A DNA stretch of 64,000 nucleotides from Salvator merianae (lineage: Eukaryota; Chordata; Lepidosauria; Squamata; Teiidae), in the NCBI GenBank assembly GCA_003586115.2, contig QVOM02000001.1:14831291-14895290 (forward strand). The letters are read 5' to 3'. The notes under the pieces are model-generated. The model saw nothing but the letters and a program-made list of their open reading frames with translations. It ran no database searches and had not been told where the DNA came from. A program made the position numbers and the translations under genes. Positions 1 through 53,979 of this stretch are shown in pieces; position 1 is the first letter of the stretch, and every line of letters starts with the position of its first letter.

Positions 1-734
1 TTGCGATAATAAAAATACAGTACAATATAATCAGTACAAAACAGTACATTAAAAAATTAAACACAATGATACACTATATATAGAAAAAGAAATAAAAAAA
101 AATCATTCATTAAAAAAAACGCGCTACAGGATCCCTCCTGTGGCTCATGGCCTTTGCTCGGCACCTCTTAATATAAGCAGTGATATAGTAATATAGGCAA
201 GGAAGGAAAGAGGCAGGATAAGAATTGCATTTGGGCAGGCAGCAGCAGAACCCAGCTGTATCTGCTAAGCCACTCCCAGCACATCTGGGTCTTTCCTTTA
301 TCACATCAGTGGTTAGGCTGTTGGGACATCTGGCTACAGTCATATTTAGAAAAGGAATTGTATTTGTAGCGGTCTCTGAAGTTATGTTCCCACCAGGACA
401 GAGGCACCTCCCCAAAAGTATGCTTTCTGATGATGTGTTGTGGTGACAGCCAGCTGGCTTTAAAAGGGGAGGGAGATGTAGAAACCGTGATTCTCTTTGC
501 CAGATGTGGCTAAACTATGACTCCAGCTCTCCCAAGACAAGTTATTATAATCCTTTGATGTGGCAAAACACGGACTTCTGCAAGACAGGCCTTAATGGAT
601 GAATTTTTGCTTACTTCCCAGACTCGTGTGTGCTTTACATGCTTGGGAGGCACAGCCCCACATTTTGTACATATCTAATGCATACCTTCAGTTCAATCCA
701 AATCTGAGACTGTCTTTTCTTTTTCCTGGGATAG

Positions 735-908
735 GTAGCTCCAATAATTAAGGAGCGGATGATGAAGAAAGGGTCCATGATGGTGAGCTACCAACCACAT
801 GGCAACAGGGTTAACTTCTTCCGCCAGGTAGTCACTAACCCAGCGGTCACTAGAGAGGACTTGGATTTCTTCCTGGATGAAATTGAGCAGCTTGGAAAAG
901 ACCTGTAG
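735..908 (+). CDS. CSAD: Cysteine sulfinate decarboxylase, last coding exon (partial gene)
   Basis: The exon starts after the acceptor ...GGGATAG at 734 and reads 57 codons to a TAG stop. The peptide opens VAPIIKERMMKKGSMMVSYQ and ends DEIEQLGKDL. This is the C-terminal end of the PLP-dependent group II decarboxylases GAD, CSAD and GADL1. The ERM-KKGSMM-YQPHG wording is closest to CSAD as I remember it (ERMVKEGSMMIGYQPHG), with GADL1 the main alternative. CSAD converts cysteine sulfinate to hypotaurine in taurine synthesis in the cytosol. The PLP lysine and the rest of the enzyme lie on earlier exons, off the left edge; 1-734 is intron. The frame is intact, so the gene looks functional. Family certain, CSAD rather than GADL1 likely. 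Confidence 0.88.
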   Translation, partial: VAPIIKERMMKKGSMMVSYQPHGNRVNFFRQVVTNPAVTREDLDFFLDEIEQLGKDL

Positions 909-1386
909 GGGGCCTATGTCCTCCAATTCCTTCCTTCCTTCTGCAGCTTACTTCCTGAATCCTTCTGTGATGATACAGGGACTACACACTCCATTGTAGG
1001 GAGTGAAAAATTCTGTTTCTTTGCTGATGTGGATGAACCTTACTCTCTCTCATTTCTTTTCAGAGTTGCATTAAAATCCCTTTTGCTTCTTAAGCTTGCG
1101 TAAACCTTACAAATTGCCTTTTTTTAAAAAGCAAGCAAAGCTAAGCACTGTACAGGTCTTCCTTCGAGGTCTAAATACTGGATTCACTTGTGTGTTTCTA
1201 CATTTTACTTATGCAGCACTATAACTGAAGGTAGCACCTTACAGAGTTTGATAATTGAAAACAAACATGTTTCTGCCCCAAGGAGCTTACTATGGGGGAA
1301 ACAACAAACCAAGAGACAATAGGGAAGGAAGAATGTAGTCAAATGTCATTACCCATATTTAAAGTCTGCCTTCACTTAAAATGAAG

Positions 1387-1392
1387 AATAAA
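1387..1392 (+). terminator. Candidate polyadenylation signal of CSAD
   Basis: An AATAAA hexamer lies about 480 bases after the CSAD stop. It is the first canonical signal I see on this strand after the stop, but no GU-rich downstream element was clearly recognised, so the exact 3' end is uncertain. Confidence 0.35.
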
Positions 1393-2769
1393 GAATGTGC
1401 ATTGATGGTCTTCCAGATGTTGCTGGACTTTAACTGCATTACCTGCAGCCAACATGGCCAGTGGGAACAAATTATAAGGGCTGGGGGTCCAAAACATCCA
1501 TAGGGCTACAGATTCCTCACCTCTGATAAGCCAAAGATCATGCAGAAAAGGCACATCTGGAAGACGGATTTGAAGGTAGCCGTGAGTGGTAGAGCCTGGA
1601 GCAACAGAAGTGCAAGGACTCAATGTGAAACCTGATGATGAAGGGGGATGTTTCACACTGTGCAGAACTTTACTTATTTCCCTCTACCCTGGACCCATCT
1701 TTACAGAGGTGCTGAAGAAGCATCTTCTTTGGAATGCAGCGGTTGGTCTGAAACCATTTCAAAGAGCGTCAAAGACCTCCATTCAGATGGAGCAAATGAT
1801 GTTGTGGAAGTTGTGGAGCAAATGATGATGAGGATGTTGTGGGGAGACAGACCAACAGGCAGGCATGTGATAGAGAGGAAGTGACATTCTGCCCATTTCC
1901 CCACTCTCTGCTCCCCAGCTATTGGCAGTCTTTTTGTTGTTGTTAGAAAAAGTCAGACTCAACAGCTGCAGGGAAGGAGCAGCAGAGGCCCTAAGTGAAG
2001 CTCATACAGGATGCCCCTGACTACCTTCTTCCTGTCTAGTGCACAAGGTTGTGACTGCAGCAGTTCTCGGGGCAATTGATTCTGAAAAACAGCAATACGT
2101 AATCCCAGTTTGTTTGCTGTACCCTTCAGATGTGAGGTCTAAGCAAGTTGCCTGCCTTGCCTAATAGAAAACTGCCTCTGAACAGCAGTCTCAATGTTGT
2201 TCCTTCTTTCAAGAAGATAAGTGGAGGCACATATGCCCTCTTGTAGCCTTTTTTTTGTAGAGGGAGAAAAAGTGGCAAACATGGTCACTTTCCTCAAAGC
2301 AAGGGCTATCCTATGGACAGGGAAACCCCACTGGAAAGGACAGGCTTGGTGAATCAAGTGGGTGCCCAGCAGCAGCAGTGCTAGGTGACAGTACTGAGGC
2401 CCAGAGGCCCTGCAAACAGCCATGGTGTGCTTTGCACAAGGCGTGAACACCCGCCCTTAAAGCTGGCGGCCGCTGCTGGTAGTTTTGAATACCTTTCTTT
2501 TTTTTTCCAAGAGAATCTTCAAATTATTTTTTAGCAGCTTCAAAAGAGCTGTTCCGTAGGATCTAGGCACACCTTGAAAAAGGGACCAAAATGTTACCTT
2601 GCAGGAGTGGTTTGGTGCTACTATTCTATTCTTCTCCTTTACATGCCTTTTATAGCGACTTATGGTAACAAAAGAATGGTGGCGGATAGTGATAAAGTCT
2701 GAAGCAGGAGAACATATCAAATGTAACCAAAGTCTTTAATATCTAATAATAACACGATGCATATTATAA

Positions 2770-2823
2770 AATATACTAATATCACTAAATATGCTAATAT
2801 CACTAAATATACTAATATCACTA
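2770..2823. repeat. 18-bp tandem repeat, three copies
   Basis: Three near-identical units of AATATACTAATATCACTA follow each other directly; the middle one has G for A at one site. It is a short AT-rich minisatellite in the spacer between CSAD and the PYD-DD gene. Confidence 0.85.
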
Positions 2824-3437
2824 ACTAGTAATTGTAGTGGTACTGATTATAAAGCGAACACAGCTATTGCCTCTTAAAAACTCATAAAATTAATTACAAA
2901 TCACAATATTTCTAATGGAAGAAACAACTTGGGTGTATAAAACATTCTGTAGAGATACTATGGCAATCAAAAAAGCTTGAAAAACAATCTATAAGTATCT
3001 CCAGCAGAGTACAACTAGTAATTCGAAAGAATAGATCAAAGATCATTAACAATACAATAGTCGATACACATTGCAACTTCCTATTATGTGTTTTCACACA
3101 ATTCCGTGTTTTACTATTTGTGGTTCATTCTCTTAATGCTCACCATTTTTTTTTTTTGCCACTGCACAATTTTTCACCTTCCCAAGGTGAATTTGAGAGA
3201 GGGGATGGGTGGAGGAGGTCAACTGTCGGAAGGTGCAGAGGACCCAGGGAAGATCTCATCTTAGGAAAAGCACCAACAAGCAGCAGAAGAAACTGGAGGC
3301 TGCAGCAGTTACAGTGCTGGAAGGAACAGGGGCACAAAGGACTCAGAGCTCCCTCCTGGAAAGCTTCTCTGCAAGTTTTTCTGTTGATTGACTGGAATGG
3401 TGGGAACCCTTCAGGGTTGCCTCACATTATGTCCTTC

Positions 3438-3443
3438 TTTATT
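3438..3443 (-). terminator. Candidate polyadenylation signal of the PYD-DD gene
   Basis: TTTATT on the + strand reads AATAAA on the gene strand, about 570 bases beyond the stop at 4009. It is the first canonical signal noticed downstream; use is inferred. Confidence 0.35.
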
Positions 3444-3794
3444 CCCTATGATAGGGGTTACAACTGTTAACAATTCTCCATATGACGCCTGTTAATCTAT
3501 TGTTCCAGCACCATCGGCACACATGGCTTTTTATATCAAGTGAATATGAATGTTTGGCCGGCTCCAGATGCCAGCTGAATATAGCGCCAACAGGCAGTGT
3601 TCCAGAGAAAAGCCTCTCTGGAATGATCACCTGTTGGCTAGACATCACGAAATACCTGGAAGTGCACAAACGTGCATGGTGGATGTGCGTGACGCCACCA
3701 CCGCGCATGCACGGCTGTCTTTTTTCAGCCCACATGCATGCGCGGTGGCCAGAACAACAATGGTGAGTCCGTCTACAACATAACTGAAAGCACT

Positions 3795-3960
3795 ATTTTG
3801 GGAAACCCGCCATCAGAGTCGGATTTTCCCGAAATAGGCTATCATGTATTTTAGGGGTGTGTGTAGCATAGCTATGGTGGGACTGCCACACACATGTGTG
3901 GCAATCCCACCACAGTGGCGACATAATGGCACTATAGTCCCCCCATCTGACTGGGGCTTT
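3795..3960. mobile_element. Decayed family-B inverted-repeat element
   Basis: The core has a palindrome around GGGACTGCCACACA / TGTGTGGCAATCCC and a second half-site reading CACTATAGTCCC. The same CCCAGTATAG / TGGGATTGCC wording occurs in the better copies at 5284, 32509 and 42015. Boundaries are approximate. Confidence 0.5.
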
Positions 3961-4008
3961 AGAGAAGTCCATTTCCTGTCTATCCCTCAAATACATTTAA
4001 ATACATTT

Positions 4009-4295
4009 TCAGTCATTCCCCATTAGGAATCCATAAGCTTCGTACTCAAGAGGCACACCTTCCTGGTTGAGGATGCGGTACAGCTCAGCTGCAGTAGCCT
4101 GTCCTCTCTCGCGGTTTTTCCAAGCACACAGCATGTGGAAGATTTGCATGGGCACGTCATTGTGATTTTCCAATTCAATCTGCTCCAGTTTTTCTTTTTT
4201 CATTCCTAGGAACTGAATCCCAATCTGCTTCCATGTCTTGCCCATGTTTTTGGCCAATGTCATCATCTGTGCCTGAGAGATAAGTTCGGATGGAA
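4009..4295 (-). CDS. PYD-DD adaptor-like gene, exon 2: death domain
   Basis: The acceptor reads TTCCTAAATTTTGCAG on the gene strand, and the exon runs 287 bases to a TGA stop. It encodes residues 111-205. Residues about 114-198 form a death domain: the helix 1-2 motif AKNMGKTWKQIG has the typical Trp (W132), LGMKKEKLEQIE is helix 2-3, and QIFHMLCAWKNRERGQAT carries the conserved helix 5 Trp (W169) and the AT before helix 6. The wording resembles CRADD, PIDD1 and FADD death domains; I cannot rank these without alignment. Death domains bind other death domains in apoptotic and inflammatory complexes in the cytosol. The exon begins with two bases (TT) that complete the single G left by exon 1 at 6486, giving Val111. 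Alternative: the domain could belong to a longer gene with unseen exons, but the exact phase fit favours two exons. Confidence 0.85.
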
Positions 4296-5283
4296 CTGCA
4301 AAATTTAGGAAGTAGTCAGGAACATATGACGTTATGAAATGCACAAAAATGAAGCGGCATGTACATGCACAGGAAAAAAACGAAAGTGTTTTTTAAAGGG
4401 TTATTATTATTTTTTTGCTTTACATTCTGACTTTCTTCCTCAGACCACCACAAGGCATCAAACATTATTCTCCTTCCCTCTACCATACCTTCAGAACAAT
4501 TTTAGAAGGTTGGTTAGGCTGAAAGGCAGTGATTGGCTGAAGACACGCCAGTGGTTTGCTGCCTTGGGCTCTTCTTAAGAAAGACTGGAAATAAACCAAA
4601 AATAGGTGCCTTACTTGCATCTACAGTGAGAAGGAAGACGTTAGAGAAACACTGTGTGACAGTCTAGGGGTATGACTACATGGTTTCATTTTTGCAGTAC
4701 TGATTCAACTGGGGGGCTAAAAAGAGGGCAGGACACTCACATCCTCCCAGTATTTGAGGCACTCTTGCTTATCACTTAGCAGGACAGAAAACTGAAAATG
4801 GCTTGATCTTGTGATTTTCATGTGTCACTCCAAGGATGCAGGGGGCATCTCCTACCTTTGGGGGGTTTCAGGAATGAGTGCTTAAGGGCTTCCCCAAACC
4901 CCATGTCTCTGCTGCCCGCTGCCACTCACCCAGCAGCTGCCCAGCCCAGCTCCTCGAGCTGTGATTGCTTGTCCAAGAATAGCCAAAAGTTGCGTGGGGA
5001 GGGGGGGAATCATGAAGCTGATCCTGAGGTTTCCATTTTTGTGTCTGTGCTCTGGTGTCCGTCTTGTCCACCATTGCTTGTCAAACATGCATTTTCCTAT
5101 CCACTCTTGTAATGATGGAAGATGGAAAAACGCAGCTAGGAAACAGCTAAAACCATTGTAGTCTTCCATTACACATTCACTACGTAAAATTTGAGAAGCT
5201 CACCTTGGGGCTTTGCAAGGGTGGGGAACCCAACCTACTGCAATGTCCCCTCACTTCAGTCTTGGTCAAAAATACAGCAGATC

Positions 5284-5656
5284 CAAGGCTGCCTCCAGGC
5301 GGTGAAAGGAAAATCCAGGATCTTGTTTAGAACCTGCCATTGCCTCTCGCCATTCCTGCCAGACCATTCTTGCAATGCACCCGCTGGCGCAAAATATCCA
5401 GAACTGCAGAAGCTCAAGTGCAAGCACCTGCCTGTGCCCTCATGATTGTGCAGTGGGTATTTTCAGCAGAAAAAAATCCTGGGAGCAAGTGCCAGGCATG
5501 GAAAGTAATTTCACTGTGTGGGAAAACTAGGGTTTGCTGTTCTTTTCTCCAAAATAGCGATATCCCAGGATTTTGCCTCTATATCCCCGGACTATGTTGG
5601 GATTGCCATGGTTACAAAATCCCAGGTTTTAGACCTTGCCTGGATATAACCCTAGA
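5284..5656. mobile_element. Family-B inverted-repeat DNA element
   Basis: The left end reads GGCTGCCTCCAGGCGGTGAAA and the right end TTTTAGACCTTGCCTGGA, matching ends at 42015 (GGGTGCCTCTAGACGG) and 42456 (CATCTGGAGGCACC). The interior shares GCAGGATCTTGTTTAGA with the 42-kb copy. No coding capacity; non-autonomous. Class not fixed because no clear target duplication was found. Confidence 0.65.
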
Positions 5657-6214
5657 GGTTAGGGATTCAAATCCCGTAACTGGTCTGGAAGAGCAGAGAA
5701 AAAAAGTGGGAGGTAGCTTGCACATTTACCTGGAGTCCAAAGAAAGGCTTCATTTCCCTCCCAAACAACCGCACTCATGCATTGTGTATAGCTGATTTGG
5801 TAAATAGAGCAAGTTTGGCTGGCAAGTAAGTGACAAAGCCTGTCTGGGCACTGACCGCTATTCCTTTGGAGCTGGTCAAAAATTCAACACCCCAACAGGA
5901 AGTCCATCACTGATTTGCAGGGATGGAGAAAAGGTACAGGGTAGTTTGTAGTTCAAAAGGGGCAGTGAGGGATCTGATCAAGTCAATGCTCTTACGCACC
6001 CATCTGGAGAGCTTTCTTTGGATTTTTAATGAGATGAGATTTGGGGTGTGATCAGACGGGCTAATTCGGGCGACTTCCGGTCGCTCAGAGGGCGGGCATT
6101 CCAAAGATGCTCACAGGTTGCATTAATGGATACCTCGCAATACCCAGTAACCACAGCAGGGTGGAAACTCTGAACAGGCTTTAAATTTACGTATCCCAGC
6201 CCTTCCAGGGTCCC

Positions 6215-6305
6215 ATCTAAAGTTTTAGTCAAGCTTCAGTCCACTTTTAGATAATGACTAGCCACTTTACTGATGTGTTTTCTCATTCTGGATTAAACCT
6301 TAGAT
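6215..6305. mobile_element. Family-E element fragment
   Basis: TAAAGTTTTAGTCAAGCTTCAGTCCAC through CATTCTGGATTAAACCTTAG matches the copies at 26976-27160 and 39056-39250. Only the core is preserved. Confidence 0.5.
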
Positions 6306-6485
6306 ATGAACGCAGCTCGTGGGGAGCTGTATTATTAGCTCAAGCCTTCCTCGCGCAAGAGTTCCGGCGGGGCATTAAGATTGTAAATACTGTATCCACT
6401 TGCTTGGTACGTACAGGGAACTAAACAGCTGTTCTCTGAAGGGAACTACGGTGCTGTCTTTAACTGTGGGCTTCTCGTGACTCAC

Positions 6486-6816
6486 CTGGCCTTTCTGGGG
6501 CTTCCCTACTCGGAATCTGTCCTCCGCCATTAGCCCCCCCGGGATGGGGATCTGCTGCTTGCGTGTCACATCTGAGTGCCTTGAGGAGATCGCGCCTGTG
6601 CATCTTCTCGAGTATCTGGGCGGTGACTCCCAACTCTCTCTCAGGGTAGAATCGCATGATCAGGTCAGCAAGTTTGACTGCGGAGATATTCTCAAGCCTT
6701 GAGCGAGGGATGCGCCGAGCATCTTCCGGCAAGCACGACAGGTAGTAAGCGAAGGTGTCCAGCTCGCGGTCCCCCAAGTCTTCAAGGATCGATAGGAGTC
6801 GCGGACCCACACTCAT
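6486..6816 (-). CDS. PYD-DD adaptor-like gene, exon 1: pyrin domain
   Basis: The exon encodes residues 1-110 and ends at a strong donor, CAG|GTGAGT. Residues about 5-82 are a pyrin (PYD/DAPIN) domain: RLLSILEDLGDRELDTF for helices 1-2, IPRSRLENISAVKLADLIMR for the family's IPR-x-LE...LADL core, then VTAQILEKMHRRDLLKALR for helices 5-6. The helix 2 lysine patch common in ASC and NLRP pyrin domains is missing here (TFAYYL). Residues 83-113 are a Gly/Pro-rich linker. The ATG at 6816 has a GGCGGC upstream context and gives the usual short PYD N-terminus; another in-frame ATG at 6960 would add 48 unrelated residues. Pyrin domains polymerise with other pyrin domains, as in ASC inflammasomes. With exon 2 the product is 205 aa, PYD-linker-DD. 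Role inferred: adaptor linking a pyrin sensor to a death-domain partner. Confidence 0.87.
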
Positions 6817-6868
6817 GCCGCCGCCTCGCTCGCTCGCAAGGAAGAGGGCAAACAAAAGGCTGTGCGTT

Positions 6869-6878
6869 TTTCTCTTTC
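6869..6878 (-). promoter_or_regulatory. ISRE/IRF-like motif 1
   Basis: TTTCTCTTTC on the + strand reads GAAAGAGAAA on the gene strand, an exact GAAANNGAAA core, 53 bases upstream of the chosen ATG. It may lie in the 5' UTR. Confidence 0.4.
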
Positions 6879-6964
6879 TCTCCGCAACGGAAGGGAAGAT
6901 AAAGGGCGGAAAGCCCCCCTCCTGGTAGCAGGCCGACCAAGGAAGCGCAGAGACTCTCACTCTC

Positions 6965-7004
6965 AGTTTCTTCTTCGCACACGACCACGGGCGCTTTCGT
7001 TTTC
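6965..7004 (-). promoter_or_regulatory. ISRE/IRF-like motifs 2 and 3
   Basis: AGTTTCTTCTTC at 6965-6976 is one base off the AGTTTCNNTTTC ISRE consensus. TTTCGTTTTC at 6995-7004 reads GAAAACGAAA on the gene strand, an exact GAAANNGAAA core. Their closeness to each other and to motif 1 suggests interferon or IRF control, as for many inflammasome genes; use is inferred. Confidence 0.45.
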
Positions 7005-7570
7005 AGTCGCTGGCGCGAAAAGGAAGAAGCGCGCGCAGAGCAGGAAATGCATGGAAGGCTCATCTGGGGGCATTGCGGGGTTAGGGCAGGGCAGGCGGCT
7101 GTATTTTTCTCCTTGCCATGTGAAGAGGATGGAAAGGTGTCTCGCTCTGCAACGGAGCTTGGCGACAGGGACAACAAAAGATGCTTCGGGCTTGGCGATT
7201 TGGTCTCCTGTTTTAGGTCGATGAATCAAGAAAACTGGGCAGAGCCGAGAGAGGATGGAGGCGGCTGTGAAAGCGGCGCGTGGAGAGCGCCTCTTTGCTT
7301 TTTATCCTTACATGCCATCAGATTGACTCCTGCACAAATGTTCGCCTCCACCGACCGGTTTCTAGCGTGATACTGGAGTTCTTCCTAGGTTATTCCTTTA
7401 TGCACTTTTGACCCTTGAAAAGATCCCGATGCAACGACCTTCTGGACCCAGAAGAGTCAACAGCGATCAGCCAGCTCCTAATATCCCCTGGGCATGGGAC
7501 TCCATTCAACTGCGAGCTTGCGAGAAGGCAGATTTTAGAACCCGCACCACGGGAAGCCTGTCCGCAGCGA

Positions 7571-8333
7571 GAAAGGGTGTATGTGGAAGCACTAGGGGGG
7601 AGCTGAAGTGGAGGGAGGCTAGGTTGGATAAATAACTGGGTGGGGAGAGAGGATTAGCAATCAAGGCAGAAGAAGGTAAGGTGGATGACCACAAAGAGCA
7701 GACTGTGTGTGTCTGTGAGATAGGAGGGGAACAGTGCACATAAAGGGACATTGCATATATGAGAGGAATGGTACAGAATACAGGGGTCTATATATGTATG
7801 AGAAAGGGAATTGTGTTCGTGGGAGAGCTTGGGACACTGAAAGACTGGGAAGAAAATGCACTTTGTGCTGTGTGAGAACTCAGTGTGTAATGTGCATGAA
7901 GAAACCTCCTTCGCCATGCTGTGAAACAAACTTTCCCTGCTTTCAGCACCTGCAGATCAAAATTCAAGACACATTCGTGAAACTGCAAGAAGAGGGATAG
8001 TAAATAAAACGGCGTAGCAGCTGACTGAATTAAGTGCAATTCAATATCCAGCATATTAAAAGGCCATAATAAAACTTGCGTTTCAAATTAGTTATGTGGC
8101 CAGATTTATTCATTCTATAGCTGTCTAATAACAAACCCCTTATATATATAAAAAAACAGTGTATAAAAACAATGCAGTTAAAAATTATTACTTAAAAAAA
8201 AAAAAAAACCAGAACAGCCAGGCAGACCTCTAAATGCCTGGATGAATAAAAAAAACTCTTCACCTGGTGTCTAAAAGCATACAGGGTTGCTGCCAGTTTA
8301 GTTCTGCTCAGCGCCATCTCTTTCATCTGTTAA
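7571..8333. other. Intergenic, no gene seen
   Basis: Ordinary intergenic sequence with a run of A and a short repeat-like tail near 8190-8290 (reading AAATGCCTGGATGAATAAAA). No coding signal recognised. Confidence 0.4.
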
Positions 8334-8816
8334 GGGCCCGTTCGCACCTACCTTCTGGAATTCCCCACACCGTCTGTTGGAACAGCACAGCTGCATCTGA
8401 CCATGGCTGCAGTTGCCCTGGAGCTGTCCAAGCCTTGCTTGGAGTGTTCCAGCTGTGGACAACTTGAAAGGTATACACAGGTGTTCCTGTAGCAGTGGGA
8501 ATGGTACGTTTGCCATGGTGCGAGATGAGGGACCTTCAAGGTTTGAACATCCGAACCTTAAGGCTGCCTCCGCCCTCACACACTGGACATAACATACCTT
8601 TGTCCAATCGTGTGAGGGGTGGATGGGATGTCCAATGTCAGGACTTCCCACCAGGAATAGACCACAGATTCCTGTCGTTCACAATCCTCGAGTGGCTGGA
8701 CAGGAACGGGCCTGATCCAGCATTCTAGGTGGGAACAGCCCCAGCTGTTCCTATGCTGCTCTGGCCTGGATTTGTCTGCAGGGACAATTCCAAGCTGATA
8801 AGTGTGAACTTGGCCT
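8334..8816. mobile_element. Probable Harbinger-type inverted-repeat element
   Basis: The left end GGGCCCGTTCGCAC and the right end GTGTGAACTTGGCCT are imperfect inverted repeats. Internal GGAACAGC...AGCTG blocks occur in opposite orientations near both ends. Flanks TAA and TAT differ by one base, so the duplication is not clean. No protein coding. Confidence 0.55.
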
Positions 8817-9695
8817 ATGACTGATTTCAGCCCTAAATAAAGCACTGAAATTGCTCTAATTGTCCTAGCTGGTGACCTTTATTAGGAGAGAGGGTAGTGG
8901 GTTCAACTCTTTAGGGTGTCCTTATGCTCTCTGTGGCTTTTGAAGGCATTAACTACAGCATCCTTCTGGAGCTGGAGAAACTGCTAGAGTTCAACTCATA
9001 CATCCAGGGATGATGTCAGGGGTCTTTTCTTTGGTACTGTGGGATCAAACCTGGAGATTTCTCAGGAAATCATCTTGTTGCGTATGCTTCCAATGCCCAT
9101 TTGAAGCCGCTTCTTCTCTTTTCCATCTGACTCAGGAAAGATAGTTCAGGTGCTTCTCCTTTGCCTGGAGGTGAAGGTTCTCTGTGTTACGGGTTCTTAC
9201 GTCCAGGAAGGGGAGACTTGCCCTGTTCTTGATGGATTTGCAGTGCTTTTGAAATGGCAACAGAGAAACACGCTTGGAATCGTCTTTGTCACTTGAAGTC
9301 TGAGGGTATCAATAGATCAGAGTGACTGTGTTTAGTTGCTTTAGTTCATTCAGCAACTGTGGCCTCTTCTGAACAGGATACCATGCCTGCAGTAATGCAC
9401 ATTATAGTAACGTTTACACTGAATTGCTACAATACACTTGAGTGGTTTGCCCATCAAGGTGCTTTGTAGCTGCAACTGATGCAGAATGCTGCAACAGCAG
9501 TGGGACCCTCCAGTCACACATTTTGACACTTCTGAATGTTTAGCACGGTCTGCCGGGGGTCTGCCAATCCCCAAACCCCGGGTGAATGTTGATATGGAAA
9601 GCTCTAACCATATTATGGACAAATAGCTGAAGGACAACTCCCCCCCCCCCCCATGGACTTGTGTGCTGATATACTGTTGCACATAATTTAACTTA
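8817..9695. other. Intergenic, no gene seen
   Basis: No coding or repeat family was recognised apart from a poly-C run near 9640. Frames here are short and show no domain. Confidence 0.35.
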
Positions 9696-9699
9696 AGGG

Positions 9700-10100
9700 C
9701 AGCTCAAATGGTGCTTGCAAAAGGATGGAAGGATGAGATGAAATGGACCATCGATAATTGGTTTAACTATGGAAGTGAATTTTTGCTTTTTGATTTCTTG
9801 AGAGAAAGAAGAATGATTTATATGGGATATAAGGTTAATACTAGATGGGAGAAAAATTGGAAAAGAAATATTGATTTTTGGTTTATGAACTGATGGGAAT
9901 GAGGCTTTGAAAGAATCGATACAAATAGACTTCCCCAAGAAAAATAACGGACAAAACGTTTTTTGACAACCCATTTCTGGGGGGGAGGGGTGATGGGGGG
10001 GTCAATCTTTTTATATTTAAATGTGTTAATAATATTTTGTTTTGTATGTATTTGCCTTTAATAAAAATAAAACTGCAATTGTCCCCCCCCCCCAAAAAAA
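9700..10100 (+). mobile_element. L1-like LINE 3' end
   Basis: The + strand encodes WKDEMKWTIDNWFNYGSEFL and later RWEKNWKRNIDFWFMN before a stop, in the style of a LINE-1 ORF2 C-terminus. An A-rich tail with AATAAAAATAAAACTGC and a poly-C/poly-A run follows. It is a 5'-truncated copy, as is typical for LINEs. Confidence 0.55.
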
Positions 10101-10189
10101 ATCCTCCTTAAAAATAAGTGTTTTTTTTATGGTGGATGATGAGGTTGCTTTGATGCCCTCACTTTTTTAAAAATGAGCAGAGCATGTAA

Positions 10190-10276
10190 ACCCGGGGTCT
10201 ATACTGGGAATGCCACAAATATGTGTGACATTCCCTGGAGAATCACAGGTTTTGACCCATGTCTGGAGGCACCCCT
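10190..10276. mobile_element. Family-B element, right-end fragment
   Basis: CTATACTGGGAATGCCACAA and CAGGTTTTGACCCATGTCTG followed by GAGGCACCCC match the right half of the 32509-32962 copy. Confidence 0.6.
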
Positions 10277-10781
10277 GATGAAGCAGAACAGTTCTTTGTC
10301 TCACTCTGTACACTGTACCTTGGTACGGTATTTCTTAGCTTTGCTCTGCAGCAAGAGCAAGGCCAATTGCTTTTACAACAAACAGCAAACAAAACTTTAA
10401 TGCAGGCAAGCAATTTTGGATGTGACTATTTATAAATGAATTGGAGCAGACACTTCCAGAAGCACTGTGCATTCTCCTGGTGAGGATCAAAATATTTTCA
10501 CACAAAAGGTAAATGGGATGCTGGAAAGGATCCACTGGTAGGATCTTTTTGGAGCCAAATGAGGCTTTGAAGGCTGGTAGCAATGAATGGGGTGAAACTG
10601 AGAAGAAAAACCTTTTTGGTACTACAACTCCATTATTCTAAACCAAAGTTTCCACTGACTTACACCAGGAGTGGCAGGACAGGAATGTGGAGTCACTATG
10701 CCCCAGAACATCCTCTGAAAGAAAAAAGAAACAATAAGAGAAAGGGAATCCTTGAATTAATATTCATGAAGGAAACAGCTA

Positions 10782-11229
10782 GGGCCTTTCTGCACTTTCC
10801 AGCTTGGAATGTTTACATGCATTCCAGGATGGAATAGATCTCGCAGTGCGAGAGACATTCACACTGCAAGGGCTGGAAATCCCAGCAATGGGCTTCCAAC
10901 ATTTGCAGTGTGAATACTGGCCACCTGTGCCATGACAGTGGCTGGGGAATCATCTGGCCACTGCCAAGGCAACAGGGGACGCAGCACAACCGTGCAACTG
11001 TGCAGCCATGCAGTGCAGCATTCGCACCCAGAAGAAGGTGTGAACACTGCATACCGGGAGCAATCCAGCTGCTCCCAGGATAGCTGTGGAGCACGATTTA
11101 GTGCTCCACAGCAAGTAGCAATCAGGCATGGCTGTAGCCCACTCGCAATCACGAGGGCTTCCACAAAGTGCAGATGCACTTCACTAGTGAGTGTCTGCAT
11201 GCTCACTAGAGAAAAGTGCAAACAGGCCC
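10782..11229. mobile_element. Family-A Harbinger-type MITE
   Basis: The left end GGGCCTTTCTGCACTTTCC and right end AAAAGTGCAAACAGGCCC are inverted repeats, and the element is flanked by CTA on both sides (10779-10781 and 11230-11232). A 3-bp duplication with GGGCC ends fits the PIF/Harbinger superfamily. The interior carries CAGGATAGCTGTGGAGCACG and a CTTGGAATG / CATTCCAGG palindrome near the left end, both shared with other family-A copies. It is 448 bp and non-coding. Confidence 0.8.
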
Positions 11230-11424
11230 CTAGACAGATTTCTGATTGAGTCTTGAGACTGGCAAAAACACGCTTAGAGAGTTCTGAAAAAGCAAAGGCT
11301 TTCTTCTGTTCAACAGTATCTATGTTTTTCCCCATAAGTCTGAAAAATTAAAACTGTGTCTAAATGCACAGTTTTTTGTAAACTAGGCTCATTCAGATAT
11401 CTGAATGGATAAATAGGCATGAGC

Positions 11425-11500
11425 CAGTTTATTTATTTATTTATTTATTTGCATTTTTATCCTGCCCTATACCCGAAGGTCTCAGGGCAGGTTGCAACAA

Positions 11501-11552
<52 letters not shown>
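11425..11552. repeat. SINE-tail-like segment and (GAAA)n microsatellite
   Basis: A TTTA run and GCATTTTTATCCTGCCCTAT followed by GGTCTCAGGGCAGG resemble a reversed SINE 3' end also seen at 47846. They run into about 12 units of GAAA at 11501-11552. Confidence 0.65.
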
Positions 11553-12836
11553 GGCACTCAATAAAGCAGTAGCCTGAAAGTAGGGTGGGAAAGCTGTACC
11601 TTTAGCCCAAGGCAATGATAAATAGGTGCATCCCATTCCAGCCCCAAGCTCCTAGAAATGGCATGCACACCAAAAGGTGGGATTTCCCGCTTTTGGGGTA
11701 CACTTTCCTAAAAAGCGTCCTTGGCATTGGCCTGACAGTGTCACCAAATGTTTGTGTTTGGGGTGTCCTTTGTGGGCCACACCAGTTTAAGTGGTATCAT
11801 AATGGGCACTCAAAAAAAAGAAAGAAAAAAAAAACTGATGGAAAAAATGGCCTTTAAACATTGTGTCTGGAGACAGCCTAAGAAAGTTCTTAATTTGCAT
11901 GTCCTATTTCTTTTAGGGCTGCCTCCAGGGGGAAGACAAAACTCAGGATTCTGTGCAAACACAGACCTGCTTGCAATCAGCCAATAGGCCAGCCTGGAGG
12001 TGCAGAAACTGCCCTCATAGCTGCCCTAAGATGGGATAAAGCACTCTGAATGGATGGAGATCAGCAGCAAATTCACTTCGTCTGCCGAACTATAAAGTGG
12101 TGGCAGAGGAAGGGAGTGAATTAGCATAGCTGTTTCTGCCTGTGTCAGTTATCATGGATCAAAAATGGCAACTTCCAAGGTCATTTCCAGCTTAATGCTC
12201 AATGGGCAGGGCTGAAACCTTGCAGCTGCAGAACTTTTGTTCCACAGCTGTTAGGTTCTCAGGTGCCAAGAGGTGCCACACATGTCACTGATCGACCTCT
12301 TGCCTCTGTGCTGGATTCCAGGTCTCCCATGCCTCAGATGGCCTGTTTGTCAGCAGTTCGGATGTTGCCTTGAACTGCTTCTTCTGAGATTTCAAAAAAC
12401 AGGTGACTCAGTGGATTGGAAAGACATGGAACAGTGCCCAGGTTCCACTTCTGGAAGCATTTCTTAACAGGTAATAAAAACTCTGGGAGATGAGGACTTT
12501 GCTCCATCCCGTCTCTTCCTCTTTGAGCTAATCAGCTGTGACTCCTCAGGCGTCAGCACTGTAGGTGCCCTTTGAATTCTCCTTTCTGAACAAGGAGGAG
12601 TGGTTAAAAGGAAACCTCCATTCCTCATTCTTACAAAGTAAGCAACCTTCAGTTCACAGATAGACCCTTTGGGCCCCCTAGTCTGGTCCACGGTCTGTCC
12701 TCTGTAGATGGAGCATACTAGGAGGAGGGGCCCTCTCTCTGGTCCACTCTAAGCTGCATGCAAAAGAGGCCTAGAAGTGGATCATGGTCTGGTATGCTGG
12801 GCAGTGTGATTAGGCCCATATACAGCGAGGGTCTTA
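11553..12836. other. Intergenic with element fragments
   Basis: A decayed family-B piece (GGGCTGCCTCCAGGGGGAAG) lies near 11917 and diverged family-C-like wording near 12650-12750. No coding gene recognised. Confidence 0.4.
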
Positions 12837-13302
12837 GGGTTTTTCTGCACAGAAAAGCCCGTGGCTCCCAAAACACAGGAAAGCATGGGTGGGATCACTG
12901 CTCTTTGCATGATGGAGCTTCGTGGACACACTCCTATGCCTCCAAGGGCTAGGAAGAAAAGTTCCTAGTCTTGAGGCCTCTGGGGAATGCATTTTGGTGG
13001 CACACTATGGCACACCAGCGAAATACATCCTCTAGTAGTACCAAATATGGAGGGGTGACATCTGCATGACTCCCACGTTCTGGGTCAGGGCCACTGGGTG
13101 TGCTGGTAGACCCTGTTAAATGGATCTCCCTGTGATATCAAACAAGGCCTCCTTGTTCAGCATTACACTCTGTCTAATACAGGCATAGTGAAACAGCAGG
13201 GTGTGTGGCCTCATAGATCTATGGCAATGTGCAGATCTATGTGGCCTAGATGATTACTACCCAGGCCCTTAATCCGAATTAAGGGCCTGTGCAGAAAGGC
13301 AC
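12837..13302. mobile_element. Family-C Harbinger-type MITE
   Basis: The ends GGGTTTTTCTGCACAG and CTGTGCAGAAAGGCAC are inverted repeats with TTA direct repeats outside (12834-12836 and 13303-13305). The interior shares blocks with the 35308 copy: CTCCAAGGGCTAGGA, AGACCCTGTTAAA and CCCTTAATCCGAATTAAGGG near the right end. It is 466 bp with no coding. Confidence 0.78.
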
Positions 13303-15690
13303 TTAGTACAGTTGAATATTGATTGCATTGATAATAATGTACACGTCCAAATAATTGCTAGAAATGGACTGATGTTTATACTTCTGGCAACAAACGGATG
13401 TTTGGCAATTGTTATTCGTGGAAATCGAAAAGGTCTTTTTTACACTGTGAACTGAGAGTATAGAGATGCACATTTCATCATTTCATGCAATGAAGTCAAC
13501 AACTATTTGCAAATATGCCAAATGAAATTGAATATGACCTGGCTGGTGTGTTGAAGGAGAGAAGTGAAGTAAATGCCATGTATAGTGCCACTCAACTCAA
13601 TTTCAAGTGGGGGGGCGGGCGAGAAATGGGAGGAAACGTGCCCTCTTGTACTAATTTCTCCATTATATCTGCCAGTTTGGGTCTCTTTGAAAGGGAACTA
13701 GACGCAGGCTGCATTCCTGTGCAACTAAAAAAAGCACTTCTGATGCAGCTTAGAGTGGGCTTAGAGATGATTAGAGATGAGTGGGATCATTCACATGTGG
13801 CAAAGGTGCTAAGAATGGAGAATATCCTTTATTTGCTCAACACATTTCAGCTTTTGCCTTTATCAAGAGTTAAACAAAATTAAAGCATGAATAAATGTAA
13901 ATGAAAATTAGTAAAAATAGTTTAAAACAATAATTATACAATTAGAAAAGTATTTAAAACAACTTACGCTGACTTTCAGAGAATAAGGAGCAGAATCTTG
14001 GCTCAAGACACAGTGGCGTAAGAACAAAATTTAAAGAACTGATAGAGAACAGCAGTTCAGAGAGGTTTTTTTAATAAGACTTAAATAAATATTCATCATT
14101 TTATATGATTATAGAAGACTGATGCGTTTTATATTATATCCTGTTGATAAAGTCAAATGTTACTGGTATTTCAAGGATAATTGTTACAGCTATTTATGGT
14201 TTGCATTATCCTAAAGTAATGCTAAGATCCTCATTAAGTTCCAATGGTTTCAAAGTGTTTAGATCTAGATTTGACCTACTTTGCTTTTTTAAAAACAGCA
14301 AGCTATGAACTTAGTTCAGAATCAATACTCTTATCTAATTGTATTCCATCACACCATTTAAAAGCTCTTCTTCCTTTATGCCTCCATGACCCATAGACCC
14401 AACTATAATGATCTTGGAAAGGCTATTTTAAGGCAACAGCAACAACTAGAGATATCTTAGTTTAATCTTATCAATCAATAGAAAAAAAAAACACTTCATA
14501 CCATATTATCAGATCTGCGATAAACTGGATTAGCAAAAGTAAAACATAAATACTAAATTGTAAAAATTGTAGTATATGTATAACTGCATGGATGGATTTA
14601 TTCTCCAGATAATTATCTGCTTATTTATAAACCTGAAGGTATTGTTATCTGCAAATGCACATATTATGTAAATTGTCTTACTAAAAAAAGAAGAAGTTTA
14701 TAATAAAAATAACATTTATTGGGCAAATTGACTTAAAACTTGTCTATTATCATTAAAAAGACTGACAAAGGTGAGACAATAGTTTTCCTTAATCACCACA
14801 GTTTTATGACAGTTGTCAGAAAGCAGCATGTATTCAGTGTGCTATAATACTTCTCTTAACCGTATCCCAAAAGATATCAATATCATCTTATGGGAAGGAT
14901 TGCTTTTGGAACACTTCAGGAAAGATGAGCTTTACACAAAGGGTGGACACATGAGCAAATAAAGAGCAGACTAGCTGTGGCAAGGCTCCTGAACCACCTA
15001 AATCAAAAGGCAGTCTAAAAATGAAAAACAGAAAGGCAGTTCAACAAACAAACAGTTTGTCCTGGAAGAAAAATGAAAAATGCCACTGGAGAAAATGAAA
15101 TAAATGAACCGTCACAGCCAAAAATGAGAGAAAACAGTCGGGCAACAGAAGCAGGAAAAAGCCAACAAAAATGGTGGTACGGCAGCCCACAGAGAAAGAT
15201 GCAGCAAATGTGTCAAGTATGTACCCACCTGCAGCCTGGGGGATGAATACAGAAGTTTTAAAATATTTTTTAAAACTAGACTGAGTAGCAAAATGACAGG
15301 ATCTGTGAGGGGACTTCAGGAAAATGTTCAGATACTGATAGAAACTATAACTACCCCAGCATACAGCTAGAGGAATTGAAGAAACATTAGATATTATTAC
15401 AAACACTAGGTAATTCAATATAAAATACTGGTAAAAGTTAAAAAATGGCAGATGAAGTAAAACAACTACAGAAGCAATACGTGCTGGCACAGCCATAATG
15501 AAAAGGTACAGTTACCCATTTATGGTGGCACTGTGAAAAAAAAATGAAACCATTTTGAAATTAAACATTGGAAATGCAGAAGATATGGTCCCTTTGACCA
15601 AGTTCGACAACTACACTATGAAAATAGGTCGAGAATAGACAATATAGAGGTGATTGTTCTTAAGAAAAGCCCAATTAGAATACTATGAAA
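13303..15690. other. AT-rich intergenic stretch
   Basis: Strongly AT-rich. A 122-codon frame starts at 13515 but has no recognised domain and runs into repeat-like sequence (GCTCAACACATTTCAGC near 13840). A 151-codon frame on the - strand at 15041-15496 is hydrophobic low-complexity and looks spurious. Nothing functional recognised. Confidence 0.4.
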
Positions 15691-18667: not shown

Positions 18668-20282
18668 ATAAGAACATAAGAGGAGCCTTGCTGGATGAGG
18701 CCACAGCCCATCTAGTCCAGCATCCTGTTTCACGCAGTGACCCACCAATTGCTTCTGGCCATTGTCAAGCAGAAGACAAAGACAAAACCTTCACCTGCTC
18801 TTGACTGCCCGCAAATGGTTTTACAGACATCCTGCCTGTCTGTACCTGTCTGGAGGCAGTACCTAGGCATCAACTCTAGTAGCCATTGATACACCTGACG
18901 TCCACAAATCTGTCCAGTCCTTTCTTAAAGCTGTCAACGCTGACTGCTGTCACCACCTCTTCTGGTAATAAATTCCAGAGACCAACGACCCTCTGGGTAA
19001 AAAAATACTTCCCCTTGTTGGACCAAACTCTCCTACCCATCAACTTCATAGAGTGCCCCCTGGTCCTAGTGTTGTGTGAGAGAGAAAATAATTTCTCTCT
19101 ATTCCCTTATCCACACCGTGCATGATTTTATATACTTCAATAAGGTCTCCTCTTAAACACTGTTTTTCAAGGCTGAAGAGGCCAAGGTGTTGCAGCCTGA
19201 TTTCGTAAGGAAGGTGTTCCAGCCCCTTGATCATTCTGGTAGCCCTTTTCTGCACCTTCTCCAGTTCCACAATATCCTTTCTGAGGTGAGGTGGCCAGAA
19301 TTGCACACAATATTCCAAGTGTGGTCTCACCATAGATTTATAAAGAGGCACAGTGACACTTGCCGACTTGTTTCTATTCCCTTCCTAATTACCCCTAGCA
19401 TTGAATTTGGGTTTTTCACTGCTGCTGCACACTGGGTTGACACCTTCATTGAGCTGTCTACCAGAACCCCAAGATCCTTTTCCTGGTCTATCACAGAAAG
19501 TTTGGCCCCCATCCGTTTATAGGTATAATTGGGGTTCTTTGCCCCGATTAGCATCACTTTGCACTTGCTAAGACTGAAGTGCATTTGCCACTTCGTTGTC
19601 CATTCACTCAATGTCAAGAGATCACTCTGGAGCTGTTTACAAGCACTCTCAGTTTTTACAACTCTGAACAATTTAGCATCATCAGCAAACTTTGCTAACT
19701 CACTAGTTACCCATATGTCTAGATAATTTATGAATAAATTAAAAAGCAGGGGTCCTAACACTGAACCTTGTGGGACTCGTTTACTTTCTTCTACTCTGAG
19801 AACTGTCCATTTAGCCAGTTTCCTGTCCTTTAGCCAGTTACCAATCCAGGACAGGACCTGTCCTCTTATTCTGTGACTGCTGAGTTTATTCAGGAGTCAT
19901 TGATGAGGGACTTTGTTAAAAACCTTCTGAAAGTCCAGATAGACAATGTCAACTGGGTCACCTTTATCCACATGTTTATTAACACTTTCAGAAAATTCTA
20001 ACAAGTTCGAAAGGCATGATTTACCTTTGTAGAAGCTGTGCTGATTTTCTTTCAGAACTGCTTGCTCCTCTATGTATATAGCAATTTTATCCTTAATTAT
20101 GGTTTCCATCACTTTACCTGGAACTGATGTTAAGCTGACTGGTCTGTAATTTCCTGGATTACCCCGGATCCATTTTTGAAGATTGGTGTCACATTTGCTA
20201 CCCCCCAGTTTTCAGGCACAGAGCCTGATTTTAGGGAAAGATTATATATTCTGGCTAGTTTCTGCAGCCAGTTCACTGAAGA
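18668..20282 (-). mobile_element. CR1-type LINE, 5'-truncated, reverse transcriptase region
   Basis: Read on the - strand, successive pieces give QKLARIYNLSLKSGSVPENW, NQHSFYKGKSCLSNLLEF, DKGDPVDIVYLDFQKVFNKV, the polymerase core KFADDAKLF (FADD box) near 19690, EKDLGVLVDSSMKVSTQCAA, and [19 protein letters not shown]. Stops and frameshifts break it. The 3' end reads CTGGACTAGATGGGC-like text then CTCCTCTTATGTTCTTAT. A family-B element interrupts the 5' side. It is a dead non-LTR retrotransposon. Confidence 0.85.
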
Positions 20283-20635
20283 AAACAAGCTGCAGGAAAA
20301 TGCAGGATCTTGTCCAGATCCTGAATTGCCTCTTGCCATCCCTGCCAGATGGCAGGGCAAAATCACGGAACAAGCCTTGGCCCTTACCTTGTCTGGCACT
20401 TGCTCCCACGATGCAAACACCCTCCCCCACGCTTGCACAGTGGGTATTTCCAACATGAAGAATCCTGGGAACAAACACCAGCAAGATAAGCAGGAAAACC
20501 CAGGTTTGGTGTTCTTTTTCTGAGATTTCACTTCTATATCCTGGGACTATGTTGGGATTGATAAATATATATGTGGCAATCCCAATATAGTGCCAGGATA
20601 ATCCTGGGTTTTAGCACCTGTCCGGATGCAGCCAC
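20283..20635. mobile_element. Family-B element inside the CR1 copy
   Basis: GCAGGATCTTGTCCAGATCC at the left and TTTTAGCACCTGTCCGGATG at the right match family-B ends, and the interior has TGGGATTGATAAATATATATG with CCCAATATAGTGCCAGG. It lies at the upstream break of the LINE copy, so it probably inserted later. Confidence 0.55.
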
Positions 20636-28460: not shown

Positions 28461-28497
28461 CATTACGGGGCCATTCTAGCACTTCACTACTAACAGA

Positions 28498-29275
28498 ATG
28501 ACATTTAACAGGGAGAAATGCAAAGTTTTACATCTGGGTAAGAAAAATGACAATATGCAATACAGAATGGGAGGAATCTCGCTGAACAGCAGCACATGTG
28601 AAAAGGATCTGGGTGTACTAGTAGATCACAGATTAAACATGAGTCAACAGTGTGATGCAGCTGCAAAAAAGGCAAACACCATCCTGGGGTGTATCAAGAG
28701 GAGCATAGAGTCTAGATCACAAGAAGTAATTATCCCTCTTTACTCTTCCTTGGTCAGACCTCATCTGGAGTATTGTGTCCGGTTCTGGGCACCCCGATTT
28801 AAAAAAGACATTGACAAACTGGAACATGTTCAGAGAAGGGTTACCAAAATGGTGAGTGGTCTGCAAACTATGTCCTATGAGGAATGGTTAAAGGATCTAG
28901 GAATGTTTAGTCTGCAGAAGAGAAGACTGAGAGGAGACATGATAGCTGTTTTCAAGTATCTGAAGAGCTGTCACAGTGCAGAAGGATTGTCCCTATTCTC
29001 AATTACGCAAGAAGGAAGGACTAGAAACAATGGGATGAAACTTCAAGAGAGTAGATACAGGCTAGATATTAGGAAAAACTTTCTGACCATAAGGGCAATC
29101 AGTCACTGGAACAGGTTACCACAGGAGGTGGTGGGCTCTCCTTCGCTGGAGGTCTTCAAGGAAAGGCTGGACGGATATTTGTCTGGGATGCTTTAGTGAA
29201 TCCTGCATTGAGCAGGGGGTTGGACTCGATGACCCTGGAAGTCCCTTTCAACTCTATGATTCTATGATTAAATGG
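28498..29275 (+). mobile_element. CR1 LINE, 3' part with a 232-codon open frame
   Basis: The frame 28498-29196 encodes the C-terminal reverse transcriptase and thumb region of CR1: [51 protein letters not shown], then RLPQEVVGSPSLEVFKERLD and a TAG stop. The 3' UTR reads GGACTCGATGACCCTGGAAG and ends in the classic CR1 tail ATTCTATGATT. The polymerase core lies upstream of the truncation, so the copy cannot move by itself. The intact frame suggests a fairly recent insertion. Confidence 0.9.
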
Positions 29276-30935: not shown

Positions 30936-31236
30936 AACCTGCATGATGAACAAAGATCGCTCCTTTTTCTGTGCCAGACACTGCTCAGATGAGGAGAACC
31001 ATGAACGTTTGTTCCCTGGGTCAGTGCTTCTACGCAGGGTTTTCTTCAGAGAACACAGGAAGTTGCTGCAGAAGTGGTCATATGCTGTGACCCAGGTAAA
31101 CCCTCAGGGGATTTCTGTCAGGCTTCTCCCTCAAGGTTTAACATTCTAATACTCTAATGAGCGTGAAGGGTTCCCAGAGTGTGTGTATCGTGTGCCCTAG
31201 GAGGACTCTTCAGCTGCACAGATGTCTGGTCAGAAG

Positions 31237-31836
31237 GGGCCTTTTCTCACTGAGCTCGGTAGACCGTTCCGAGTAGTTGGCTTCGAACCGGAGAGGTTGG
31301 AGAACGCAGGCCGCCATTCGCACTCCCGGCCAGCGGAACGGACCCAAAGCCGACCAGCAGAGGCAACATTGCGAATGGCAGCCACTAGTTTGGTACCCAC
31401 TTCACACCCACTTCGTACCCACTTCGCACCTTCGTACCCACTTCGTACCCAGAGGGCTCGTTACAAAGCCGGCTTCGTAACGGCAGCTAGGCTGCCAAGC
31501 CCAAAGGGCTATCCCGGGTACGGAGCATCGTACCGGGGTACGAAGCACCGGTACGAAGCAGCAGAGCAGGGTGTGACGCTTCGTACCGCGCACGCGCACC
31601 CGCGCCAGCCACGCCCGACGCCGTTGCAAACAGTGCAAAAGCACCGTGCCCGATCTTCGCTCCATCGCACAGGTCGGGATGAAGACAAGCTTTTACTTGT
31701 CTTGCTTTACCCAACATCAGGTTCGAATCAGGTACGAAGTGGTTCCGATCGGGTGAGGCGTGCACCCGCGGCAATGCGAAAGCTCCATTCTAGCGAACGG
31801 ACAGGAACGTTCCACTCGCACAGTGCAAACAGGCCC
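31237..31836. mobile_element. CpG-rich inverted-repeat element with a GTACGAAG motif cluster
   Basis: The ends GGGCCTTTTCTCACTG and CAGTGCAAACAGGCCC are imperfect inverted repeats of the same type as family A. Inside, GTACGAAG or its complement CTTCGTAC occurs seven times exactly (three in a tight group near 31405-31450, then near 31526, 31549, 31577 and 31731) plus at least four one-base variants. The segment is far richer in CpG than its flanks. A 213-codon frame (31222-31863) spans it but has no domain and reads through the terminal repeats, so I treat it as chance. No clear 3-bp duplication (AAG against TAT). Confidence 0.6.
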
Positions 31837-32508
31837 TATGTCTCCAGTGTGATTCCATGGTGAACTTAAAGTCCAGTGTGGATCTTGCCAGTGAGTGCTA
31901 CCACTGTACCACAGACATTTTATTTAAATATCATGCAAATTCTTTGGAAAAATTTCTTTTTTAACCAAAATAGTTGACACTGAATATGAACATTTAGGAG
32001 AATTTATGGTGATCTTCCTCTGCTGAAATGTGTCTAGCAATTCATTAAAATGCAATTCCTTCCTAGCTCCTGTGGTTACTCACTCTGTTTTCTGCTCCGA
32101 TCTTCCTCCACTAGCACAACCTTACTTGGATTTAGATTTGTTTCCCCTTTGTTTGAAATATATTCAAATCAAAAATAATCATTCAACACTCACACACTTT
32201 TTAGGATGTTCTTTCAAAGTTTAACTTTGAAGAATAATTTTTAATACTTATGTAATGACCTTTATGACTTTTTAATGAATTCTGAGTTAGTCCTGTCAGT
32301 TAGCAATATGGGAAATTCAATACAGAAATGCAACATAGGCATCCCTCATTATTTACACTTTCAATATCTGCAAGTTTTGTGTATCTAAACTGCATAATTG
32401 TATAGACTTGGAGCAGGGGATTGCCACTTCCCACAGTTTTCTTCAAGTGTGTACATGAGTGAAACTGGTAATTTTGGTCAGAACAGTTCTGGCCCTTTTC
32501 ATAGCTCT
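31837..32508. other. Intergenic, no gene seen
   Basis: AT-rich sequence without recognised coding or repeat content. Confidence 0.35.
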
Positions 32509-44903: not shown

Positions 44904-45024
44904 TTGTTATTTTGGTTGTGTATTAAGCGAATTCAAGGCAACAAAACTTCTGTTTTTCTGGCAGGATCCTCAACCGGCTTGCAGATTGTCACTGGTGTTT
45001 GAAATTCCCATCATCCCTGAAGCC

Positions 45025-45144
45025 ATGGAGACCATAGCTATGCTCGACACCATTGGGGTGGGAGACATGGTGTTATTGGATCCTCTAACTGAAGATACAT
45101 TGATGAAGAACCTGGAGGAACGCTTTCATCATAAGGAGATCTAT
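45025..45144 (+). CDS. MYO1A: MYO1A coding exon 1 (start of class I myosin motor)
   Basis: MYO1A (brush-border myosin I) is an actin motor that links microvillar core actin to the apical membrane of enterocytes. The exon follows acceptor TTTTTCTGGCAG at 44964, so bases 44965-45024 are 5' UTR. The ATG at 45025 has a GCCATGG context and gives residues 1-40, ending KEIY before donor GTAAGA. All 13 exons here join in frame to 426 residues. Support for MYO1A over its close relative MYO1B: LTEDTLMKNL, NVVISVNPYQ, KGEQVN, FQASGTEACGIQ and ALCSRTVE. However, the N-terminus (METIAMLDTIGVGDMVLL) is longer than human MYO1A and resembles MYO1B. An in-frame ATG at 45040 would remove five residues. The neck (IQ) and tail are past the right edge. 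Confidence 0.85.
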
Positions 45145-45994: not shown

Positions 45995-46110
45995 ACGTAC
46001 ATCGGGAACGTGGTGATATCAGTAAATCCGTATCAGCCGCTGCCCATTTACTCTGAAGCCACAGTGGAGGAATATAGGAACTGTAATTTCTTTGCAGTAA
46101 AACCCCATAT
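45995..46110 (+). CDS. MYO1A: MYO1A coding exon 2
   Basis: Residues 41-78 plus two bases. It opens TYIGNVVISVNPYQPLPIY, the conserved N-terminal motor strand of class I myosins, and ends KPH then AT, completed by C of the next exon to give Ile79. The donor is GTGCGT, weaker than the others in the gene. Confidence 0.9.
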
Positions 46111-46220
46111 GTGCGTGAGTCTCTGAAGGAGGGAATAAAGCAAATAACCTGAGTGGGATATGGGGGCACTGATGAGAAATCAGCCAGTTGCCCTGATCCT
46201 TCTGCAATTTGCTTCCACAG

Positions 46221-46315: not shown

Positions 46316-46363
46316 GTGAGCGAAGCTATGTCTCCACTTACCAACAGAGGCACCCACAAAAAG

Positions 46364-46644: not shown

Positions 46645-46647
<3 letters not shown>

Positions 46648-46695
<48 letters not shown>

Positions 46696-53967: not shown

Positions 53968-53979
53968 CATTTGTTTATA

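Follow-up and report, generated by a model that had tools for sequence, protein, structure and literature searches.

The minus strand of the window, this being the whole stretch of 64,000 nt of Salvator merianae DNA analyzed in the current work, contains an open reading frame joined from two segments (6816-6486 + 4295-4009), which comprises 618 nt, specifies 205 aa followed by a TGA stop codon, and is divided at a phase-1 junction. The features of this gene (in window coordinates) are:

6817..7300 (-): CpG-rich 5' region, probable promoter; GC 0.57, CpG observed/expected 0.93
6486..6816 (-): coding exon 1, 331 nt, with the start codon, the pyrin domain and most of the linker; phase-1 end at CAG|GTGAGT
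6583..6801 (-): pyrin domain (PYD), residues 6-78; Pfam PF02758, 62.3 bits, E 4.9e-17
4296..6485 (-): intron, 2,190 bp; minus frames free of further Pfam domains
4009..4295 (-): coding exon 2 (last), 287 nt, with the death domain and the stop codon; phase-1 acceptor TTTTGCAG
4060..4266 (-): death domain (DD), residues 121-189; Pfam PF00531, 44.7 bits, E 1.5e-11
3438..3443 (-): AATAAA, possible polyadenylation signal as judged from the motif only, 566 nt past the stop codon

The window also contains the last exon of a CSAD/GADL1-family decarboxylase gene at 735-908 (+), as well as class I myosin exons at 44965-62926 (+), for which the closest PDB chain is myosin-Ib and which we take to be probably MYO1A. 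Two further segments are presumably CR1-like LINE remnants, one at 19000-20600 (-) with a reverse transcriptase domain (RVT_1, 105.6 bits) and the other at 28480-29196 (+) with no Pfam match at E 0.001. A CpG-rich stretch at about 31201-31863, encompassing a 220-residue open frame with no Pfam match at E 0.001, is perhaps a promoter or a first exon. No Rfam family reached its gathering score in the window, and a single weak and irrelevant match was obtained from each of NCBIfam and PADLOC.

The original prediction had described, for the span 4009-6816, a PYD-encoding frame that ends at CAG|GTGAGT with one base left over, a DD exon located on the same strand behind a phase-1 acceptor, and a joined frame of 206 codons including the stop; all of these elements, the span among them, were reproduced, although the acceptor proved to be only moderate. 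Splice sites were scored with a simple weight matrix, according to which the donor is among the best, since 4 of the 6,544 GT sites present in the window (both strands, the donor itself included) score as high. The acceptor TTTTGCAG is equalled or exceeded in score by 341 of the 9,069 AG sites of the window (a count that includes the acceptor), and its position as 8th of the 209 AG sites inside the gene means that stronger acceptor-like sites occur in the intron, for example before 5684 and 4708. The start codon of exon 1 is the first ATG of its open frame, this frame being open upstream to 7002, and the CpG observed/expected ratio declines from 0.93 upstream of exon 1 to 0.77 in exon 1 and 0.33 for the whole intron. 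The observed frame exceeds chance expectation: none of 500 first-order Markov shuffles of 4009-7000 generated a frame that starts with ATG, spans 110 codons or more and reaches an equally strong donor, with one such frame in the real sequence. Both exons were recovered by the laxer exon finder, its outer ends being taken as false, and neither was returned by the strict internal-exon finder, as is expected for a first and a last exon.

The predicted protein matches both the curated PYD model and the curated Death model of Pfam, with scores (62.3 and 44.7 bits) far above the respective gathering cut-offs of 22.9 and 22.6 bits, and the domain check suggested together with the original prediction was thus passed. 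The reading of exon 1 as a death effector domain (DED) was rejected on the basis of a DED score of 14.3 bits versus the required 35.9 bits, PYRIN scoring 62.3 bits. Additional domains, the presence of which had been named beforehand as an argument against the proposed gene, were found neither in the intron nor in the scanned flanks: on the minus strand, nothing besides PYRIN and Death was detected by Pfam when all three frames were scanned across 3000-8500 at E up to 1 and across 1-3000 and 8400-15000 at E up to 0.1, and the plus-strand frames of 3001-12999, scanned at E up to 0.1, were equally free of other Pfam domains; no CARD was recognized in the protein or in these flanks. In the protein and the stretches scanned there are, therefore, two death-fold domains and no other domain, as expected for a two-domain death-fold adaptor. 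The linker between the two domains is Gly/Pro-rich and about 32-42 residues long, depending on the choice of domain ends.

When compared by sequence to solved structures in the PDB, the DD is best matched by THOC1 (31.3 bits) and PIDD1 (31.1 bits), followed by ankyrin-3 and FADD, and the PYD is best matched by that of NLRP6, followed by the PYDs of pyrin (MEFV) and NLRP14. THOC1 and PIDD1 are large proteins of other architecture, and neither of them has a PYD. Single-sequence AlphaFold models were poor, with a mean pLDDT of 53.4 for the DD exon (six helices) and of 55.9 for the PYD exon (five helices of 4 or more residues). When these poor models were submitted to Foldseek, ranks 1-18 of the 59 matches of the DD were death domains and 25 of the 31 rows obtained for the PYD were PYD-bearing by title, none in either case reaching E 0.001; considering that Foldseek also uses sequence, these matches add little independent weight.

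The whole genome (2.05 Gb, 1,816 contigs) was searched for death-fold domains, the counts of large families being lower bounds. This search retrieved at least 35 PYD and at least 26 DD matches, all of them above the curated cut-offs, together with 8 DED matches of which 6 exceed the cut-off. PYD and DD matches are close together only at the PYD-DD locus, where their starts are 2.5 kb apart, the next nearest pair being separated by 672 kb; contig C196, which holds 29 of the 35 PYD matches, has no DD match. The genome's own FADD is located on contig C1682 (L053 + L035), its DED exon and DD exon being 49% and 44% identical, respectively, to human FADD, with the exons about 8 kb apart and split in phase 1 (AAAC|GTAAGT then CTAG|GT). 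PYCARD (L015), with PYD and CARD exons that share 47% identity with human ASC, is located on contig C196, and a CRADD-like DD (L037) occupies a locus separate from that of the PYD-DD gene. The PYD-DD gene is thus not a disguised FADD or ASC, both of which have their own loci. The presence of PYCARD, together with the genome size and the CR1-like LINE pieces, is in line with a reptilian source.

Among all 26 DD loci, the nearest relative of the DD as retrieved by tblastn is L045 (C1608:90555254-90555463, minus strand), with 40% identity over 75 aa, and the two sequences have a one-residue insertion in common. The DD tree included 16 of the 26 genome matches and 5 human rows, leaving out 10 rows (L034, L039, L041, L042, L044, L047-L051) that are short, divergent, stop-bearing or long-frame; the PYD tree included 11 of the 35 matches and 4 human rows. 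The DD groups with L045 and not with FADD (ultrafast bootstrap support 92/89), and the PYD groups with PYD exons L008 and L012 (94/91), both placings lying below the 95/80 mark of the tool. Other genomic DD rows pair with human CRADD, THOC1 and RIPK1, the RIPK1 pair being below that mark. By score alone, human NLRP6 (34.3 bits) is as near to the PYD as is L008 (34.7 bits). The related PYD exons L009 and L012 reach DED scores of 24.2 and 20.4 bits, below the cut-off, which suggests that this PYD branch is somewhat DED-like; a search of about 9 kb downstream of these two exons revealed no partner domains. Downstream of L008 there is an old reverse transcriptase. The DD of L045, which is most THOC1-like by PDB search (45.3 bits), is encoded by an internal exon whose two ends are both in phase 1 as read by eye, and no partner domain for it was found in the stretches scanned (L052 whole, L045:1-1440).

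The phase at the end of PYD exons was compared for PYCARD, L008 and six frames with tandem PYDs (poly-PYD frames). Phase-1 GTAAG donor motifs are present near the ends of the PYCARD-like PYD exon and of all six poly-PYD frames examined, and the L008 exon ends in phase 1 as read from its sequence; the DD exons of the genome's FADD and of L045 begin in phase 1. Since the checked PYD exons end, and these DD exons begin, in phase 1, such modules would join in frame by simple exon shuffling, and the PYD-DD gene is likely to have arisen in this manner, through the joining of a PYD first exon to a DD exon.

The layout of the gene is that of FADD. Human FADD is described as consisting of 286 + 341 bp with an intron of ~2 kb (PMC550674), which, if all of the 286 nt are coding, corresponds to a phase-1 exon end and, for the total of 627 nt, fits 208 codons plus stop; two FADD exons are also listed for human, mouse, chicken, frog, stickleback, zebrafish and medaka (PMC1903365). 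With 331 + 287 nt of coding sequence and an intron of 2,190 bp, the PYD-DD gene displays the layout of FADD with a PYD replacing the DED: two coding exons separated by a phase-1 intron, the interaction domain in exon 1, the DD last, and a product of 205 aa versus 208 aa. It differs in its N-terminal domain (DED in FADD, PYD here), in a DD that is just 28% identical to that of human FADD, and in having its own separate locus; as FADD is reported to be conserved in all vertebrates (PMC12119088), the PYD-DD gene need not replace it. ASC/PYCARD similarly has an N-terminal PYD exon with a phase-1 end, a linker and a second death-fold domain, but this domain is a CARD, its gene is on another contig, and its interface-I residues are not kept in the PYD-DD protein; moreover, the ASC linker is given as 23 residues (PMC9640978) versus about 32-42 here. 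CRADD/RAIDD is likewise a two-domain death-fold adaptor with a terminal DD, yet it carries a CARD instead of a PYD, its DD is 23% identical, and the genome has a separate CRADD-like DD. Pyrin-only proteins (POPs) are also small PYD proteins without a sensor domain, though in these the PYD stands alone.

The interface residues of the PYD were compared in a five-PYD alignment. In ASC, the mutation of interface-I residues K21, K26, D48 and D51 is reported to abolish filaments (PMC4917984), and none of the four is kept in the PYD-DD protein, in which they correspond to D20, Y25, S45 and K48. At interface II (Y36, 59, E62, M76, Q79 and E80), one of six columns (M76) is identical by letter and position, and position 59 also matches human ASC (F, given as Y in the numbering of PMC4917984); the changes are Y36 to A33, Q79 to R75 and E80 to D76, with E62 in a gap. 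At interface III all four columns are kept, E13, L15, P40 and R41 of ASC being equivalent to E12, L14, P37 and R38. With the interface-I residues not kept and interface II mostly different, an ASC-like self-propagation of this PYD into filaments appears doubtful. MEFV deviates in a comparable manner, differing at three of the four interface-I positions (position 21 being acidic and position 51 occupied by lysine), yet it is listed as physically associating with ASC (PMC8564539), so that contact of the PYD-DD PYD with sensors seems possible.

The locus is best explained as a functional-looking gene for a 205-residue death-fold adaptor composed of a PYD, a Gly/Pro-rich linker and a DD, with no other recognized domain, that would relay a PYD trigger to a death-domain output, a reading to which we assign a probability of roughly 0.6. 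Adaptor function, which we infer from sequence as the most likely role, can be considered a well-founded hypothesis, and the interpretation given in the original prediction is partly supported, in that both domains pass their models, the frames join in phase, no additional domain appeared in the stretches scanned, and FADD and ASC have loci of their own. In the proposed mechanism, the PYD would be recruited to an activated PYD platform, such as an NLRP- or pyrin-type sensor or a PYD filament; this recruitment would concentrate the DD, which could then nucleate or join a death-domain complex, the candidates being FADD, RIPK1 and PIDD1/CRADD. A PYD trigger would thereby produce an output through caspase-8, caspase-2 or NF-kB, in place of caspase-1 or alongside it. 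As matches of the DD, THOC1 and PIDD1 score higher than FADD, and the choice of partner is not fixed by similarity.

The main rival to this adaptor reading is an inhibitory role, in which the PYD would cap or titrate sensors in the manner of pyrin-only proteins and the DD would block death-domain complexes, the signal being damped rather than relayed. A small protein without a recognized catalytic domain fits such a function, and an interface III that is kept while the interface-I residues are not could permit capping without extension. Pyrin-only proteins, however, are not known to have a second death-fold domain. MEFV also deviates at three of the interface-I positions and is still listed as physically associating with ASC (PMC8564539). 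Inhibition is considered unlikely, though to be kept in mind.

If the two exons belonged to separate transcripts, the PYD exon would be spliced to another exon and the DD gene would have an unseen 5' exon, an arrangement for which the stronger acceptor-like AG sites in the intron leave room. This is made improbable by the matching phases, by a donor among the best 4 of 6,544, by the lack of any other Pfam domain in the minus frames of 1-15000, and by a DD frame that has no in-frame ATG before the domain; in addition, CpG observed/expected does not exceed 0.36 in 300-bp steps from 4350 to 5850, so that no second CpG-rich start lies beside the DD exon. A recently silenced or never translated copy whose frame is still open would have to have kept all 206 codons and the splice sites intact together with a CpG-rich start, and has no closer parent among the 26 DD loci or among the 11 of 35 PYD matches that were compared; it is regarded as highly improbable. 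Descent as a diverged orthologue or duplicate of FADD, ASC or CRADD is hardly credible: layout and length do match those of FADD (205 versus 208 aa), but the DED score of 14.3 bits is below the cut-off of 35.9 against 62.3 bits for PYRIN, FADD (L053 + L035), PYCARD (L015) and the CRADD-like DD (L037) are all present at separate loci, and the DD groups with L045 and not with FADD (92/89, below the 95/80 mark). Divergence from FADD or ASC was accordingly rejected on the DED score and the separate loci.

As the architecture of a small adaptor, PYD-DD is genuine and, as far as the searches reached, new. The tandem combinations named in a passage of a census of human death-fold proteins do not include PYD-DD (PMC8564539). 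The titles and abstract openings of the open-access literature searched name no PYD-DD two-domain protein; the description of the adaptor as unnoticed thus holds for that literature, and sequence databases may already carry an automatic prediction of it. Human cells are not known to have a PYD-DD protein. Outside the genome itself, 203 candidates yielded no homologue at E 10, and neither 2 pattern stretches from viral contigs nor 14 stretches from prokaryote contigs yielded a confirmed relative; given the mostly microbial and viral content of the collections, these negatives are uninformative on the rarity of the gene. A PYD-DD adaptor of non-mammalian animals, by which pyrin-domain sensors would be wired directly to death-domain complexes as a bridge without human counterpart, is put forward tentatively, at somewhat less than even odds.

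If this were the case, PYD-DD would complete the DD-containing two-domain adaptors, with PYD beside DED and CARD, and PYD sensing would reach DD complexes with no need for ASC, caspase-1 or a heterotypic contact. The gene may in this way link inflammasome sensors to the cell-death machinery by a route that mammals lack, which is relevant to the evolution of cross-talk among the pyroptotic, apoptotic and necroptotic pathways, and also to lineages like the birds, PYCARD being reported as not found in chicken, turkey and zebra finch and as present in green anole (PMC13076529). The adaptor could also serve as a compact natural reagent to study such wiring.

Next to the PYCARD-like gene, whose exons are located at L015:8171-8380 (PYD) and L015:4696-4953 (CARD), single open frames 327-697 aa in length form a cluster (C196:3.81-3.97 Mb, minus strand, loci L015-L025). 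Each of the six frames given to Pfam contains 2 to 5 scored tandem PYDs, and up to 7 PYD pieces were counted with our own small profile. ASC-like CARD exons, 43-45% identical to the CARD of human ASC, occur among these frames (L016:2721-2972, L018:3409-3696 and L020:8945-9196), and the poly-PYD frames beside PYCARD may represent poly-PYD-CARD paralogues of ASC.
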